The notes beneath the pieces are model-generated. The model saw nothing but the letters and a program-made list of their open reading frames with translations. It searched no databases and had not been told where the DNA came from. Below are positions 11,599 to 32,288 of a DNA stretch of 36,468 bases, piece after piece; position 1 is the stretch's first letter, and each line of letters starts with the position of its first letter. The stretch comes from a bacterium (GTDB lineage: Bacteria; Patescibacteriota; Microgenomatia; UBA1400; PJMF01). The stretch spans positions 1 to 36,468 of the forward strand of contig JAFRKQ010000007.1 of NCBI GenBank assembly GCA_017431625.1. The letters are read 5' to 3'. The position numbers and the translations under genes were made by a program.

Positions 11599-11747
11599 GG
11601 TTAAAATCCTATAATATTAAATACTAATATTATAGGATGTTGACTCAAATTTTACTTCAAATTCCAGACAAGAAAAACGCATAAAGTCCTATAATATATT
11701 ATTCTGATTTAATTTAGTCTGGAGAACTAAAAAAATTATAGGACTAA
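11599..11747. repeat. 150-bp intergenic repeat, copy A
   Basis: Nearly the same sequence as 16649-16798. It holds a perfect 14-bp hairpin (11606-11619 with 11625-11638, 5-base loop) and an 11-bp outer pair AGTCCTATAAT/ATTATAGGACT (11685-11695 with 11735-11745). The latter encloses GTCTGGAG, which can pair with an upstream TTCCAGAC. The ends form imperfect terminal inverted repeats (TTAAAATCCTATAAT against TTAGTCCTATAAT). The right end lies within five bases of a stop codon. Confidence 0.85.
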
Positions 11748-16648: not shown

Positions 16649-16798
16649 GGTTAAAATCCTATAATATTAAACTTAAATATTATAGGATTTTAACTAGTTT
16701 TAGCTCAACCAACTCCAGGCAAAAATTTAATAATATAACCTATAATATATTTTTCTAATTAAAATTAGTCTGGAGACATTTTAAAATTATAGGACTAA
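16649..16798. repeat. 150-bp intergenic repeat, copy B
   Basis: The best-preserved copy. The first hairpin is a perfect 19-bp stem (16650-16668 with 16676-16694, 7-base loop), containing GTTAAAATCCTATAATATT. The second pair is CCTATAAT/ATTATAGG (16739-16746 with 16786-16793) around GTCTGGAG, and CTCCAGGC lies between the two. Its right end is six bases from the stop codon of the neighbouring gene at 16805. The start of TraG lies 125 bases to the left. Confidence 0.87.
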
Positions 16799-21224: not shown

Positions 21225-21612
21225 TTATTAACAAAATGGGGCTTCTACTCGAGGAATTTTCTCTATCAAATAGAATCTAAGCAACAGCGAGTGATCTTAA
21301 ACAAGCACTTGTTTGTGACTCGCAACCGCATCCAATGGTGGAAAACTTTGCTCTCACTGATCTGTTATCAATTAGCAATCATGATAAAAGTCGCCTTTGT
21401 CATAGTTATTTCTTGCAAATTTTGCGGGAATAATTGTTATCCAGGCATACAGCAATTAATGTTGCCCAAAAGCATTGACCCGTGTGCCGTATTCATGCCT
21501 TTGGCTGATGAGCATCTAATCGTGAGATTTTAATGATTGGCCACAATTTTTGCTTGTTTTTCTTGCAATATTTTTTATTTTAAGCCGTCATTTTCGCCCT
21601 TTTGCTCATGTC

Positions 21613-21641
21613 TTGACAAAACCCCAGCTCAATGATAAAAT
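21613..21641 (+). promoter_or_regulatory. gyrB-ppa-gyrA promoter
   Basis: TTGACA at 21613-21618, 17-base spacer, TAAAAT at 21636-21641. The ATG at 21652 lies 10 bases downstream, so the leader would be about four bases. Confidence 0.75.
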
Positions 21642-21651
21642 CAACCCACTT

Positions 21652-23672
21652 ATGGCAAATAACGAATACAAAGCATCACAAATAAAAGTACTTGAAGGTT
21701 TGGAGCCTGTGCGCAAGCGCCCTGGCATGTACATTGGCTCAACCGATAGCAAAGGTTTACATCACTTAGCTCGCGAAATTCTAGATAATGCCGTCGATGA
21801 GGCTATTGCCGGTTTTGGCCATACAATCCAACTTTTTCACAACAAAACCCCAGAAAACTACCACCAAATCGTCACCGGCAAAGATGAGACTTTCGGCGAC
21901 GAAGAAATTATCGTGGTTGATAATGGTCGGGGCATTCCTGTGGATATGCACGTTAGTGGTGTTTCTGCCCTCGAGGTGGTACTTACCAAACTGCACGCTG
22001 GTGGTAAATTTGAAGAAACTGCCTACCAGGCTCTGGCGGTCTGCACGGTGTGGGTAGTAGTGCCGTCAATGCTTTGTCAGCTATTATGCAGGTAGTAGTC
22101 AAGCGAGATGGTAAATATCACTATTTGGCCCTATCTCAAGGTGAAATTCTCGATCATGTCAGTGTCATTAGCGAGGCTGATTTTCGTGCCAAATTTCCCA
22201 ATGCCTGCCAAGCCTTGATCGAAAAGTATGAAACTGGGACTTTGGTGAGTTTTGTACCCGACAAAACTATCTTTTCTACCACCAAATTTTCCACCTCACA
22301 ATTGGTAGATATCCTCAAAGACCGGGCTTATTTGATGGCTAGGATTTATTTTGAGCTTGATGATACCATTGCCCATATCAAACGACATTATTATTTTGAA
22401 AATGGTATCCGCTCATTGGTGGAGCATATCAATCGGGCCAAAAAACCAGTCCATGATGTTTTTTACATCAACAAGGCGTGGTCAGATCAGGAAACCGGCA
22501 AACATATCGGCGTGGAGGTGGCGCTCCAGTACAATGATAGTTTTACCGAGCGCCTGGAGTCTTATGTCAATGTAATTCCCACACCTGATGGTGGTACTCA
22601 TGTGACCGGGTTTCGCGCCGCTTTGCTCAAAGTCCTCAAAGACTATGCTGATAAAAATAAACTCCTCAAAGAAAAGGAGAATTTTACCAGTGAGGATTTG
22701 CGCGAAGGCTTGACAGCAGTGGTCTTTGTCAAAATGCCCGCTAATGATCTGCAATTTGAAGGTCAGACTAAATCCAGACTCAATAACTCTGAAGCTCACA
22801 CCGCTGTTTATCAGGTGATGAAAGATGCTCTCGCTGATTTCTTGGAGGAAAATCCCAAAATCGGCAAAGCCATGGTGGAAAAAGTCGTAGTGGCAGCCAA
22901 TGCCCGCATGGCCGCTCGTGCTGCCAAAGATGCTGTGATTCGCAAAAGTGCTTTTGAGGGAGGTGGTCTACCAGGAAAACTCGCTGATTGTCAAAGCCGC
23001 AATGCCTCTGAGTGTGAAATCTACATTGTCGAGGGCGACTCGGCTGGTGGTAGTGCCAAGCAAGGTCGCGACCGCAAATTTCAGGCAATTTTCCCTCTGC
23101 GCGGCAAAATTCTCAACACCGAGCGAGCTCGTTTACACAAAGTCATTGAAACCGAAGAACTCAAGAATTTAATTATTGCCCTCGGGGCAGGAATAGGGGA
23201 GACCTTCAAACCAGAAAAATTGCGATATCACCGTATAATTTTAATGACAGATGCTGATGTAGACGGTGAGCATATTACTACTTTGGGGCTGACATTTTTT
23301 TATCGCCACTTGCCAGAGATTATCAAGGGTGGCTACTTGTATGTGGCGATGCCACCCCTATACAAAGTCACTGACGGCAAAACTACAGAATACACCTATA
23401 CTGAGGCTGAACGTGACGCTGCCGTCGATAAAATCAAAGCCAAACGCCCCAATGCCAATATTTATATCCAGCGCTACAAAGGCTTGGGCGAAATGAATGC
23501 TGAACAGTTATGGGAAACAACGATGAATCCAGCCAATCGCATGCTCAAGCGCATTACTCTGGACGATGTTGAGACCATGAATAATACTTTTTCGGTACTT
23601 ATGGGCGATGAGGTAGCGCCGCGCAAAAAATTCATCCAATCTCACGCTCGACTTGCCAACTTGGACATATAA
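21652..23672 (+). CDS. gyrB: DNA gyrase subunit B, reading frame broken once
   Basis: ATPase subunit of gyrase, which introduces negative supercoils. The GHKL ATPase region has [31 protein letters not shown] and [10 protein letters not shown]. The TOPRIM domain has [17 protein letters not shown] and [11 protein letters not shown]. The C-terminal [15 protein letters not shown] is intact. The frame changes between 22031 and 22032: codons up to CAG-GC continue only if one base is added before TCT-GGC-GGT, which restores the invariant A-S-G-G-L-H-G-V-G. In the zero frame translation would stop at 22095. The rest is open to 23672; with one base restored the protein has 673 residues. The N-terminus [17 protein letters not shown] is chosen from the promoter; the frame reaches further upstream without support. 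Confidence 0.92.
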
Positions 23673-27735: not shown

Positions 27736-28671
27736 TTAGTTTTTCAGCGAGTGGAACTGCGCGTGTGCTTTTTTGAGTTGTGGTTTGGTCACGTGAGTGT
27801 AAATTTGGGTTGTCATCACTGATTTGTGACCAAGCATCTCCTGAACATCGCGCAAATTGGCCCCATTGCTCAAAAGATCAGTGGCAAAAGAGTGGCGCAC
27901 TCCATGAGGGGATAGTTTTACTGGTAATTTGGCTTTTTTGGCGTATTTATCCACGATTCTCTGGACGCTTCTTGCTGTCAGGCGCATCTGTTCGCCACTG
28001 CCCAGCAGGTTTTTTTCTTTTTTGCCACCAAAATGGACAAAAAGAGGGATCCATTCGTCTTCCCTACTCCCCAACCACTGGCGCAACCAAAATTTTGCCC
28101 GATCAGACAAGAAAACCACTCGAGGACGCCGGCCTTTGCCAATCACCCCCAATTCGCCTGATTCCAGGTCAATTTGTGGCCGATTGAGAGCCACCAACTC
28201 ACTCACCCGCAAGCCTGTCGAGTACAAAAGTTCCATGATCGTCCGATCTCGCAAACCTGCTCTGGTCGTCAAATCTGGTGCTTCCAAGAGTTTGAGGATG
28301 TGCTCACTATCGGTATACTTCATCGATATCGCGTCCGCCTTGGGCAAATCAATCTTTTCTGGCGCTAGAGCCTCAATGTCATTTTTGGCCAGCCATTTAA
28401 GCAGACTTCTTATGGCAATCAGGTAATACGCCTGGGTTTTTTTTGATAAGGGATCACCGGTCTCAGTTTTTTGCCGACTCAGACTCAAGCGATATTGACG
28501 CAAACGCTCCAGATCGAGCTGACGAATATCATCAATCCCCTGGCGTTCTAACCACTCCACCAGATGATTTAAATAATGGCGATAATTACGCACCGTCAAG
28601 GGACTGACATTACGTTCCACCTCGAGGTGCTCCAAAAATAACTCCTTGACGACTATCGGTTGTGTCTGCAT
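27736..28671 (-). CDS. xerC: Tyrosine recombinase, XerC/XerD type
   Basis: Site-specific recombinase; the likely role is resolving chromosome dimers at a dif-type site. In 311 residues it has the SAM-like N-terminal core-binding domain (about 1-100) and a complete catalytic set: Arg155 (STGLRVSELV), Lys179 (IGKGRRPR), His256 and Arg259 (SPHGVRHSFATDLL), His282 (LGHKS) and Tyr291 (IYTHV). The start MQTQPIVV at 28671 is chosen because TACAAT with an upstream TGG lies eight bases before it; the longer frame to 28701 runs through this promoter. Whether XerC, XerD or a single Xer cannot be told. It flanks the repeat-rich gap, and an integrase role is possible but less likely. Confidence 0.88.
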   Translation of the reverse strand: MQTQPIVVKELFLEHLEVERNVSPLTVRNYRHYLNHLVEWLERQGIDDIRQLDLERLRQYRLSLSRQKTETGDPLSKKTQAYYLIAIRSLLKWLAKNDIEALAPEKIDLPKADAISMKYTDSEHILKLLEAPDLTTRAGLRDRTIMELLYSTGLRVSELVALNRPQIDLESGELGVIGKGRRPRVVFLSDRAKFWLRQWLGSREDEWIPLFVHFGGKKEKNLLGSGEQMRLTARSVQRIVDKYAKKAKLPVKLSPHGVRHSFATDLLSNGANLRDVQEMLGHKSVMTTQIYTHVTKPQLKKAHAQFHSLKN

Positions 28672-28679
28672 ACCTGCTG

Positions 28680-28685
28680 ATTGTA
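28680..28685 (-). promoter_or_regulatory. -10 box of xerC
   Basis: TACAAT preceded by TGG (extended -10) on the minus strand, eight bases from the ATG at 28671. This decides the start of the recombinase. Confidence 0.6.
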
Positions 28686-28819
28686 CCACAAAACTACTCA
28701 TATGTACGCCAATATTTAGCCGCCAATGATTTTACCACCAAGAGCAAACAAATTTTATGCGTTCAAGCCGTTTTTGACCCCTTACAAGCCAAATAGTCAG
28801 GAAAATAGCTATCATTCTT

Positions 28820-29111
28820 ATGCAAACACCTCCTCAATTAGTAATTACACAGTTTTTTGGCTTAACTAACGACCAATTTTATCAGCAATTCATACTCGCT
28901 TGTATTATTCACATGAACAATCTTTCATCATTGGAATTACAAGCCGATTTTGGGCCATTTAAATCAAAACCAGGCTAAAATCACGATTAAGCAAGGTTTT
29001 TGCGCGATCGCCCACTTATTACCACTCTCCCCGCCACTAGTTGCGCAAGTTGGCGTCTTTGGTGGATATAACATGTCTTTGCCAATTGACTGTCATCTCG
29101 TCACTGATTGA
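28820..29111 (+). pseudogene. Possible small or decayed gene in two overlapping frames
   Basis: An ATG at 28820 opens a 52-codon frame (MQTPPQLVITQFFGLTNDQF onward) ending at 28978. The +1 frame is open from 28917 to a TGA at 29109-29111 and encodes non-repetitive sequence (KQGFCAIAHLLPLSPPLVAQ). TATCAT at 28810-28815 could be a -10. An AT-rich 9-bp hairpin (29108-29116 with 29132-29140) followed by GTTTTTT ends the patch. Local GC is higher than in the rest of the gap. This may be a frameshifted remnant. No family is recognised. Confidence 0.25.
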
Positions 29112-29147
29112 TTAATTTTTCATTAAGGCTCATTAATCAAGTTTTTT
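29108..29147 (+). terminator. Terminator-like hairpin
   Basis: TTGATTAAT pairs with ATTAATCAA across a 15-base loop, followed by GTTTTTT. The stem is AT-only except for one pair, so strength is doubtful. Confidence 0.35.
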
Positions 29148-29409
29148 ACTCAACAGGGTCCTCTGCTCGTCTGATATCCAGGCTAAAAGGGGATAGCAGG
29201 GGAGACAAAATTGCAATTTTTGCCTGGAAAATGGGTCTTCGCCAGCATGGTTGACTAAGTTTAGATACCCTTATAAGTAAATTCAGCCTGAAAAGACCTC
29301 TCTTGGCGGAGAAGTCCACACCCATAAGTGCCAGTAGCTGAAAAAGTCAAATTGACAAATTAAAAATACGCGTCGCTAAAAATTGTCTAAAGTCATATTT
29401 TCCAGGCAA

Positions 29410-29439
29410 AGTGTCGCAAAAGTTATATTGTGCGACACT
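29410..29439. repeat. 9-bp inverted repeat
   Basis: AGTGTCGCA (29410-29418) pairs with TGCGACACT (29431-29439) across 12 bases, directly after a TCCAGGC site at 29401-29407. Confidence 0.6.
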
Positions 29440-29669
29440 CATAGATTCTCTATTTTGAGTACATTTTGGCCTAAATCACTGTCACTCACTTAGAGGGCAC
29501 TCTCAGGGTAGAGCCGAGCCCAAACAATTAAAGGTTATACGGCTGAAAAGCTTATTTTCACTCAATTGTTAGTAACAATTAACATGAGGAGCCTTCCAGT
29601 CATGGTCACGAGCTTATCGGCTTTAATATAATTATCGCGTCATTAGCCTGAAACTTATCGGTGCCAGTC

Positions 29670-29689
29670 TCCAGGCTATCTAGCCTGGA
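29670..29689. repeat. Palindromic pair of GCCTGGA motifs
   Basis: TCCAGGCTATCTAGCCTGGA is a 9-bp inverted repeat with a two-base centre, built from two facing copies of TAGCCTGGA. Confidence 0.8.
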
Positions 29690-29792
29690 TATGTAACCAA
29701 TATCAATCACTACTTTGAATGGTTGTCCTCATAATTCTGATGGTCTAGCCTGGAATCAACCCAGATAAGCGTATAAGTTTGTGATCGAGTAA

Positions 29793-29908
29793 GTTCGGGT
29801 TTTTTATAGAAAATTATATAAAATTACTATATCAAACTATATCATTTTTAGTGCCGATAAAAGTTTTCCACCTTGGTGGATAACTATATCAAACTATATC
29901 ATTTTTCC
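29793..29908 (+). repeat. Iteron-like composite array, copy 1
   Basis: Begins GTTCGGGTTTTTTAT, then carries two 24-base units (29826-29849 and 29883-29906). Each unit starts ACTATATCAAACTATATCAT followed by TTTT, that is, two tandem ACTATATCA steps. Between the units sits a TCCACC/GGTGGA palindrome (29867-29880). Confidence 0.85.
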
Positions 29909-30089
29909 AATTTATGGCTTTTCCTGCCTGGAAGAGAGCAACAATAACATGTGAAGAATAAGTTGTAGCGATATTCTTGTGTGTTTCAGGTATAAGTTTT
30001 GCATTTGTAAACATCTCAACTACAAAAACTACAATTTTTTAGACCTAATATATTCTAGAGATACCAGGCATAATTACCAATAAGAGTCT

Positions 30090-30178
30090 GTTCGGGTTTT
30101 TATCGTATCTGAATAAAATTAACTGTATCAAACTATATCATTTTTCCTACGGTCACTATATCAAACTATATCATTTTA
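30090..30178 (+). repeat. Iteron-like composite array, copy 2
   Basis: Repeats the order of copy 1: GTTCGGGTTTTTAT, ATAAAATTA, a unit at 30122-30145 (one base changed, ACTGTATCA) and a second unit at 30155-30177. The units are 33 bases apart here against 57 in copy 1. Confidence 0.85.
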
Positions 30179-30693
30179 AAAAATTATTGGTTACTTTAGC
30201 CTGGTGTGACTATTCCCGCATTTTTGTCTCACTCCTCTACTCTTACTTCACCCTTTGGTCACGAAAACGCGGATCAAAATTACACCATATTTTTTTGGTA
30301 AATTTACTTTTAGCCTGGATACAGTCAATTACGCAAGAATTAATTCATGCAAATTTATCTCAAGACTTATTATTGCAAGATTGTCGCAATTCCAGAGGTC
30401 AACTCGAGACAAATAAGTTTCAATTCCTAATTTTGCCTGGGCTTACCAGGGTTATTTCAAAGGTTAAAACAAAAATTTGCCTCCTCTACCCTAATTCACG
30501 CCTGGAATGCCAGAATTACTCGAGGAAAATTAGTTTGAGGAATCAAAATTTAGCCAACAAAATCAGTAATTATCATTGATGTTCACGCTTTTTGATTTAA
30601 ACAGTTCATTTTGACCGGCAAAGATTATTTGTTCAATCTCCCCCATTTTGGCAATATCAAGTCAATTCTCAGGCCAATCAGGAATTTTTGTGG

Positions 30694-30809
30694 TATAATA
30701 CCCCAAGTTGTCAATGACCAACACTGACCAACAATTGATCTTAGAAGAATATTATTGTAGTCATAGCAATTATTCTGCTCTTTGCAAAAGTGAAAATCGT
30801 GGTTTTTAG
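30694..30809 (+). promoter_or_regulatory. Promoter with possible 31-residue ORF or small RNA
   Basis: Extended -10 TGGTATAAT (TATAAT 30694-30699). An ATG at 30714 opens 31 codons (MTNTDQQLILEEYYCSHSNY onward) ending with TAG at 30807-30809. A hairpin spans the stop: AAGTGA/TCACTT plus a 6-bp TCGTGG/CCGCGA stem with one wobble, in about 30788-30823. Either a microprotein or a small RNA could be made. The -10 box closely matches those of real genes here. Confidence 0.35.
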
Positions 30810-31507
30810 CCCCGCGATCACTTATTTAAAAAACCGAAAATTTATTTTATAAAGTCTTTTTTTCCTAAATAATTGCCATCATAAGTACAAAAAGTATTAA
30901 AATCTAATTTATTCTGACTCATCAAGTGTTTTTACCAATTTTTTTTGTTAGCAGTCGACACTCATTACTGCTAATCCTTCCCCTATTATCTCAAGTAGGT
31001 GGTAAGTTTCGGGTCAATGCGAGAAGAAAACACCACTAGGACGCTTTTCTTGACTAAATATAACTATCCGGCAAAAAAACATTATCAAAAGGCCCGACAA
31101 TGACCAAAATTTATTATTGCTTAAATGTAATAAAAAAAATATTATATAACAGCATTATTACCGCAAATACCTGGTTTTATCTTTCTGCGTTAATTATGCG
31201 GTAATATTTTAATCTTATAACAATAATTTTCTCACACTATCAGGTACAAACTCACTAATTATTAACGCAAAATCTGCAATAATAATTTTCCTAAATTATT
31301 CTTGAATTATTACCGCAATAATTAATAATTAACGCAAATATTGCAAAAATATTTATATTGTCACTTTTGCAACTATATTTCATTAATTTTCTTCTCTCCC
31401 CTTTCATCTTGGAATGATTGCCCTCGACAGGCTAGGTTTTAAAATCAACAAGCGGCTTCTTAAGTCGCTATCATTGTTCAAATCAAATTTGCCGCCCGCA
31501 ACTGTGA

Positions 31508-31513
31508 TATAAT
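31508..31513 (+). promoter_or_regulatory. -10 box of the membrane-protein gene
   Basis: TGATATAAT (extended -10) with the ATG at 31521, seven bases downstream: a leaderless arrangement. Confidence 0.7.
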
Positions 31514-31520
31514 AGGGCAT

Positions 31521-32288
31521 ATGCGAGAGCGTGAGCGTTTTGTTCTGACGGCAATCAGTTTGGGTTTTTTCTTGTGGATTATTCAGTTAATTCCTATTTC
31601 CTGGCGTTATCTAGGTATTGCTGGTTTTACACTCCTGACTTATCTTACGAGTGCTTGGACCTTGCGTAAATATCTCAAATTTCATCACTGGCTAATTTTC
31701 TTACCTTTTCCGGCTTTGTATTCCCTATTTATCGGCTGTTTTTATTTTCTTTTGCCGACAAATTTCTGGAGCATGATTACAGTCTTAGGTCTCTTTTCAC
31801 TTGGCATGTATGCCCTATTTTTGTGCGGCAATATCTTTTGTGTCGCCGAGCATGACAAAAAAATCCAACTTACCAGAGCTGCCCAAAATATTATTCTCTT
31901 TTTTGCCATTATTATTTCGCTCTTGGGCTGTCAAGTCATCTACTCTTTCGCTTGGCCTGTATATTTAAGTTTTTTGGCTGTTTTTGGGCTTCATTTACTT
32001 TTAACCTTGACTGTTGCTTGGTCAGTGGAGCTCAACCGAATTTCACTGGAATTATTCCAATTGAGCTTTTTTGGTACACTTTTGATTGCTGAGTGTGCTC
32101 TTATCTTGTCATTTTTGCCGATTGAACCGTGGCGGATTGCCTTGCTGATTATGTCAACTTTTTACTTAATTTTGGGGATTTTACAAGTCTTTATCGGTGA
32201 AAAACTCTACCGACGAGCCTTGGGTGAATACACGCTTTTGATGATTGTTATTATTTTGATGTACATAGCTATTTTCCCTGGTAAATAG
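31521..32288 (+). CDS. Multi-pass membrane protein of unknown function
   Basis: Unrecognised 255-residue protein with about eight hydrophobic helices (for example LGFFLWIIQLIPISW, LIFLPFPALYSLFIGCFYFL, NIILFFAIIISLLGCQVIYS and YTLLMIVIILMYIAIF) joined by short charged loops such as AEHDKKIQLTRAAQ. Starts MRERERF, a basic cytoplasmic cap. No transporter or enzyme motif is visible. It is a single-gene unit converging on yebC, with a hairpin between them. The exact start is supported by the promoter. Confidence 0.75.
   Translation: MRERERFVLTAISLGFFLWIIQLIPISWRYLGIAGFTLLTYLTSAWTLRKYLKFHHWLIFLPFPALYSLFIGCFYFLLPTNFWSMITVLGLFSLGMYALFLCGNIFCVAEHDKKIQLTRAAQNIILFFAIIISLLGCQVIYSFAWPVYLSFLAVFGLHLLLTLTVAWSVELNRISLELFQLSFFGTLLIAECALILSFLPIEPWRIALLIMSTFYLILGILQVFIGEKLYRRALGEYTLLMIVIILMYIAIFPGK

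Follow-up and report, generated by a model that had tools for sequence, protein, structure and literature searches.

Gene content and repeats of the xer–DUF5656 gap

The analyzed window is a stretch of 36,468 bp (contig JAFRKQ010000007.1) from the draft genome of a bacterium of the order UBA1400, class Microgenomatia. In it, the genes for an Xer-type tyrosine recombinase and a DUF5656-like membrane protein (Table 1) are separated by 2,820 bp without a convincing gene, measured from the xer start (28701, minus strand) to the DUF5656 ATG (31521). The longest open reading frame (ORF) in this gap encodes 130 aa (30187-30579) and had no Pfam match, an Rfam search for known RNAs gave tRNA only, and GC content drops to 0.31-0.36 between 29.5 and 31.5 kb. 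Folding z-scores were weak throughout the gap except around the palindrome of a dif-like site.

Several repeat families occupy the gap. GCCTGGA-type sites are found at 29177-, 29222+, 29401-, 29670-, 29683+, 29748+, 29926+, 30313+ and 30500+, and the core GCCTGG/CCAGGC occurs 13 times versus 0.6 expected. The related AGCCTGG, two copies of which form a palindromic pair, was counted 55 times in 21 homologous gaps (3.1 expected), is present in 19 of them and constitutes a third, less ordered class of repeats; as a candidate polar sequence it was rejected for lack of strand bias. Toward the right end, TTAMCGCA recurs at 31158, 31262, 31310 and 31329. Here, the DUF5656 gene is inverted in the window’s genome and its two nearest relatives, G001 and G003 (L166, L167), versus the rest of the family, and the TTAMCGCA repeats and a TATAAT box are, therefore, assigned to its upstream region rather than to the dif module. 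The same upstream region comprises the TTAACGCAAA repeats; TTACCGCA/TTAACGCA words also precede DUF5656 in G001 and G003, and GTGATATAATA precedes its ATG in the window and G003.

A preliminary description of this stretch had reported a gene-less region beside xer with several repeat families, and our analysis agrees on the lack of a convincing gene and on every listed repeat, including exactly nine GCCTGGA-type sites and iteron-like arrays, recovered as four copies of a phased CTATATCA pair. Of the isolated hairpins that it mentioned, the one at 29410-29439 turned out to be the key element of the locus, the dif-like site, and its gene-like promoter corresponds to the TATAAT sequence that probably serves as the -10 box of DUF5656. 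The gene-less stretch is real, but the span proposed for it started inside the xer ORF. Nor is it the only long gap, as the window holds a second one upstream of gyrB, from 19652 to ~21550. This other gap (~1.9 kb, GC down to 0.26) contains TCCTATAATATT repeats, two GCCTGGA sites and one TTTTCCACC. The adjoining gyrB is split over overlapping frames (21550-22095 and 22050-23672), indicating a frameshift that is either genuine or due to a sequencing error.

Table 1 Positions of features within the window
Feature	Position	Strand	Remark
AGGGGAG, left of dif, pointing toward it	1445, 12034, 18950, 23195, 27010, 27662, 27727	+	
AGGGGAG, left of dif, wrong-way copy	27448	-	
Xer tyrosine recombinase, 321 aa, dif-linked	27736..28701	-	Pfam Phage_integrase 3.5e-40
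AGCCTGG, further sites	28970-, 29178-, 29747+, 30198+, 30312+		
AGGGGAG, left of dif, pointing toward it	29198..29204	+	
dif-like site GTGTCGCAAAA-GTTATA-TTGTGCGACAC (11+6+11)	29411..29438	+	conserved in 21/21 gaps, arms 10/11 identical
AGCCTGG palindromic pair, TCCAGGCTA-TC-TAGCCTGGA	29670..29690	.	
TTCGGGTTTTT element, first copy	29794..29804	+	
10-bp-phased pair CTATATCA-AA-CTATATCA, copy 1	29827..29844	+	
DnaA-box-like TTTTCCACC	29864..29872	+	variant of relatives’ TTWTCCACA
Phased CTATATCA pair, copy 2	29884..29901	+	
TTCGGGTTTTT element, second copy	30091..30101	+	duplicated unit
Phased pair CTGTATCA-AA-CTATATCA, copy 3	30123..30140	+	
Phased CTATATCA pair, copy 4	30156..30173	+	
TTAMCGCA repeats, upstream region of inverted DUF5656	31158..31336	+	not part of dif module
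AGGGGAG, right of dif, pointing toward it	31396..31402; 35029	-	
TATAAT, probable -10 box	31508..31513	+	7 bp before DUF5656 ATG (leaderless)
DUF5656-like membrane protein	31521..32288	+	PF18900 weak match

Conservation of the locus in relatives

Using Xer as a query, we found the locus in 52 genomes and read 20 of these stretches, which together with the window provided 21 gaps. In relatives with sufficiently long contigs, the gene order gyrB-gyrA-xer-gap-DUF5656-yebC is widely conserved, with extra genes between gyrA and xer in some genomes. The gap measures 1.1-3.8 kb in relatives and is mostly gene-less; a few lineages (L039, L051 and L053) carry extra genes, which in L039 and L051 (genus g2) lie between the dif cluster and DUF5656 and comprise two sugar-nucleotide genes, one for a dehydrogenase-like and one for an epimerase-like protein. 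Being retained and mostly gene-less, the gap is thus a maintained non-coding locus. The preliminary description had proposed this very comparison of gene neighborhoods, naming a degraded ordinary gene and a misassembled repeat as outcomes that would overturn its reading. The locus recurs in around 20 relatives, and no gene within the gap is conserved among them. We, therefore, rejected a decayed gene, for which there was neither an ORF, a Pfam match nor a counterpart in relatives, as well as misassembly, which is countered by synteny across independent genomes. As judged from sequence, the gap is a conserved DNA-signal locus, the product of neither decay nor misassembly.

A single dif-like site and the linked recombinase

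A single, slightly varying 28-mer of the RYGTCGYAAAAGTWATATTGTGCGACRY type occurs in every one of the 21 gaps, and its strand with respect to xer never changes. Its geometry (28 bp, two inverted 11-bp arms, 6-bp center) is that of dif sites. The non-coding copy in the window is the single match in its own genome, and exactly one match was obtained for 73 of 88 genomes in the order, with none for a reversed control. Across the class, 223 of 374 genomes have the 28-mer, mostly once each (control, two matches). The recombinase gene adjoins the site in all 62 genomes of the order in which both share a contig: the 28-mer always lies on the 5′ side of xer at a median distance of 1.25 kb from the catalytic domain, and the orientation is the same in 61, with the near-palindrome being ambiguous in the exception. 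A similar arrangement was seen in the wider class, where 18 of 19 compared sites are 0.3-6 kb from xer in the same orientation and the remaining one, in G343, is 77 kb away. While the arms are conserved, the 6-bp center differs between species, a pattern that fits a recombination site because the center need only match itself. Judged by similarity to the E. coli or B. subtilis dif, the 28-mer does not stand out in the window.

The linked Xer possesses both integrase domains, aligns with E. coli XerD (1a0p; 1.8e-39) and retains the catalytic R, K, H, R, H and Y positions, as expected for a cognate recombinase. FtsK was present in all eight genomes searched, with a C terminus that reads as a gamma domain in each; Pfam confirmed alpha, motor and gamma domains in the three genomes scanned, including that of the window. 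Alongside the linked Xer, a second Xer-like protein (~295 aa) exists in most genomes of the order, and other integrases occur in the window’s genome. Two genomes separate the linked Xer from such proteins. In the family member G015, which is 100% complete, neither the linked xer nor the dif pattern nor a DUF5656 match is present, and another Xer-like protein is retained; in G021 (99% complete), dif is present and the linked Xer is the sole Xer. dif, therefore, goes with the linked gene, and, on balance, we predict that the linked Xer acts on it alone.

Sequence polarity and the replication terminus

For the position of the site on the chromosome, we turned to four closed relatives (G031, G034, G039 and G004), which were sampled by stretches. 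The 7-mer most biased between their dnaA-to-dif halves was AGGGGAG (49:12, 35:9, 38:4 and 9:2), a polarity that is partly circular in these four genomes, as the word was chosen with dif and dnaA as boundaries, and independent in the window and the other relatives. AGGGGAG outperformed its 20 anagrams. Near dif, copies pointing toward and away from the site stood at 64:4 in the 20 relatives and 10:1 in the window. With dnaA taken as origin, the best switch point of AGGGGAG was ~1 kb or less from dif in G031, G039 and G004 and, in G034, was an interval spanning dif. AGGGGAG thus resembles KOPS and SRS in being a short, G-rich, strand-biased word that flips at dif, and we infer that it is a putative FtsK-orienting (KOPS-like) sequence.

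Further terminus signals were compared with the site. In G031 and G039, the GC skew step is no more than 1 kb from dif, compared with 52 kb in G034 and 250 kb in G004, and gene direction switches 2-108 kb from dif in the closed relatives. In these genomes, dif is located at the replication terminus, allowing for the 250-kb offset of skew in G004; the window’s genome is a draft. GC skew in G031, G034 and G039 has almost one sign throughout (L105-L164), with its level changing at or near dif. For complete Microgenomates genomes of the order UBA1400, a GC skew without any sign change has been reported, with an origin and terminus lying close together or unidirectional replication suggested as explanations (PMC7143001); the skew of the three relatives matches that state, in keeping with a placement of the window in this order. 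Since the skew steps at or near dif and far from dnaA, our data point to bidirectional replication over a constant strand bias and argue against the unidirectional replication of that report.

Scans for the origin with dif fixed, using AGGGGAG, genes or skew, were imprecise (0 to ~300 kb from dnaA). DnaA boxes and TACTAC-type runs follow dnaA in most genomes checked. In the window’s genome (L084, G000:C20), dnaA is followed neither by dnaN nor by this DnaA-box/TACTAC region, and its origin may have been relocated.

A second element linked to dif

Beyond dif, on the side away from xer, motifs follow in a conserved order and nearly always on one strand: TTCGGGTTTTTT (16 of 21 gaps), TCCTATAA (14), the DnaA-box-like TTWTCCACA (19, usually one copy) and then CTATATCA (18, often as 10-bp-phased pairs). 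Relative to the sampled G004 chromosome, these motifs are ~15 to 90 times denser in the gaps. The 9-mer occurs on the plus strand 220-455 bp to the right of dif in the 19 family gaps, and CTATATCA was observed 38 times in the 21 gaps versus 1.7 expected. The element TTCGGGTTTTT is present in 16 of 21 gaps, mostly 176-240 bp to the right of dif, against a background of 0.005/kb. In the window, DnaA-box-like matches number four (0.5 expected), and the C-ended variant TTTTCCACC also occurs upstream of this genome’s dnaA. CTATATCA-nn-CTATATCA pairs are found nowhere else in the 1.14-Mb genome. The window carries a duplicated copy of the element, with pair copies 3 and 4 forming a second unit ~297 bp after copies 1 and 2. 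Outside the gap, intergenic inverted pairs CCTATAATATT ... AATATTATAGG at 11608-11636 and 16658-16686 are operator-like and share the TCCTATAA word with the dif region.

Across the class, most of the sampled dif loci have a DnaA-box-like 9-mer followed by AACTATATCA repeats. Of the 27 places examined, the box was present in 19 and AACTRTATCA in 20; both are always positioned right of dif on one and the same strand, also at sites far from xer. A weak second 28-mer match in G343, located inside an ORF, has neither. Because the element accompanies dif even at distances of 5 to 77 kb from xer, it belongs to dif rather than to an xer promoter. To our knowledge, no described dif has such a DnaA-box and AACTATATCA element. 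Its class-wide tie to dif raises the tentative possibility that the initiator DnaA or a partner acts at the terminus, linking initiation to dimer resolution or segregation. Our best guess for its function is an accessory nucleoprotein complex that would couple the activity of dif or the handling of the terminus to the replication cycle.

Discussion

Conservation, uniqueness, linkage to xer, sequence polarity and terminus position agree in identifying the 28-mer as a dif site, an assignment that we regard as very probable. We consider it similarly well founded, if slightly less so, that the gap as a whole is a dif/terminus locus at which FtsK would be guided by AGGGGAG and the adjacent Xer would resolve chromosome dimers. 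At division, FtsK would be led toward dif through recognition of AGGGGAG by its gamma domain; Xer is predicted to bind the two near-identical 11-bp arms and to cleave the site, and strand exchange across the 6-bp center would turn dimers into monomers. The rest of the gap may represent a cluster of other putative binding sites, of which the DnaA-box-like 9-mer and AACTATATCA repeats travel with dif. Of the roles raised in the preliminary description, a chromosome-dimer-resolution region used by the adjacent Xer has gained strong support from 28-mer conservation, uniqueness, xer linkage and polarity. A centromere-like or replication-control function is left as a candidate role for the second element with its DnaA-box-like 9-mer and CTATATCA repeats, and a decayed mobile element found no support, the same locus being present in ~20 relatives.

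One alternative concerns the number of recombinases acting at the site. The linked Xer and the ~295-aa protein coexist in most genomes of the order and the dif arms differ at one base, and the two could work as a XerC/XerD pair. Against this, arms this nearly identical are unlike those of XerC/XerD, G021 has dif with the linked Xer only and G015 retains the ~295-aa protein in the absence of both dif and the linked xer; a shared site, therefore, seems unlikely to us. Small RNA promoters near such sites have a precedent in Pcer/Rcd at the plasmid site cer. With TTCGGGTTTTTT resembling a terminator tail and TCCTATAA a -10 box, the second element could be a promoter of this kind, a reading that would leave dif itself in place, but Rfam gave no match and there was no consistent folding signal, making it rather improbable.

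Two further readings concern the gap as a whole. The class-wide DnaA-box-like 9-mer, phased repeats and AT-rich DNA are parts of iteron origins and could mark a second or former replication origin or a replication-control site. However, gene direction and AGGGGAG converge on the gap and skew steps there as at a terminus, the locus usually has just one box and lacks a TACTAC trio run, and boxes and trio runs are instead found downstream of dnaA in most genomes checked. An oriC at the gap was, therefore, rejected, and we judge the broader origin reading to be very unlikely. Even more remote is a decayed mobile element or gene with Xer as its integrase: extra genes in the gaps of L039, L051 and L053 and other integrases in the genome would suit it, but the same locus and ordered motifs are kept in ~20 family genomes and across the class.

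The proposed dif/terminus locus shares much with the XerCD/dif, FtsK and KOPS system of E. coli and the CodV/RipX-dif and SRS system of B. subtilis, namely, a single 28-bp palindromic site (11+6+11) in non-coding DNA at the terminus, an FtsK gamma domain and converging G-rich polar sequences. In some class members, the left arm reads TCGCATAA, a sequence identical to the XerC arm found in many proteobacterial dif sites (PMC2731167). With its sequence TTGTGCGACA, the right arm differs from the conserved XerD arm, for which the classical consensus is TTATGTTAA (PMC2731167); in the window, the right arm TTGTGCGACAC resembles the left one, placing the site outside classical XerCD/dif with its distinct XerC arm. 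Also unlike classical dif are the recombinase gene beside the site, the polar word AGGGGAG and the linked DnaA-box module.

A recombinase gene adjoining its site is known from XerS/difSL of streptococci and XerH/difH of epsilon-proteobacteria, where, as here, near-symmetrical arms suggest one recombinase (PMC5357621). The locus differs from difSL in its 6-bp center (11 bp in difSL) and from both systems in its 321-aa Xer (354-362 aa there; around 356 aa for XerS). The closest solved relative of the linked Xer is XerD, not XerH, and a second Xer-like protein is also encoded, being present in most genomes and absent from G021. The archaeal XerA/dif likewise uses one Xer on a 28-bp dif (PMC5357621). 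Archaeal XerA appears to be FtsK independent, whereas here FtsK-type polar sequences converge on the site. In the plasmid sites cer and psi, an Xer core is flanked by binding sites for the accessory proteins ArgR and PepA. The locus similarly combines a core with a flanking cluster of putative binding sites, but is chromosomal, has its elements further from the core and has DnaA-box-like and CTATATCA sites in place of those for ArgR/PepA.

Our search of the open literature yielded no paper that treats dif or KOPS in the candidate phyla radiation and no dif site published for this class. The site described here supplies a terminus marker for the class, and the dif-linked DnaA-box module represents a new, testable element.
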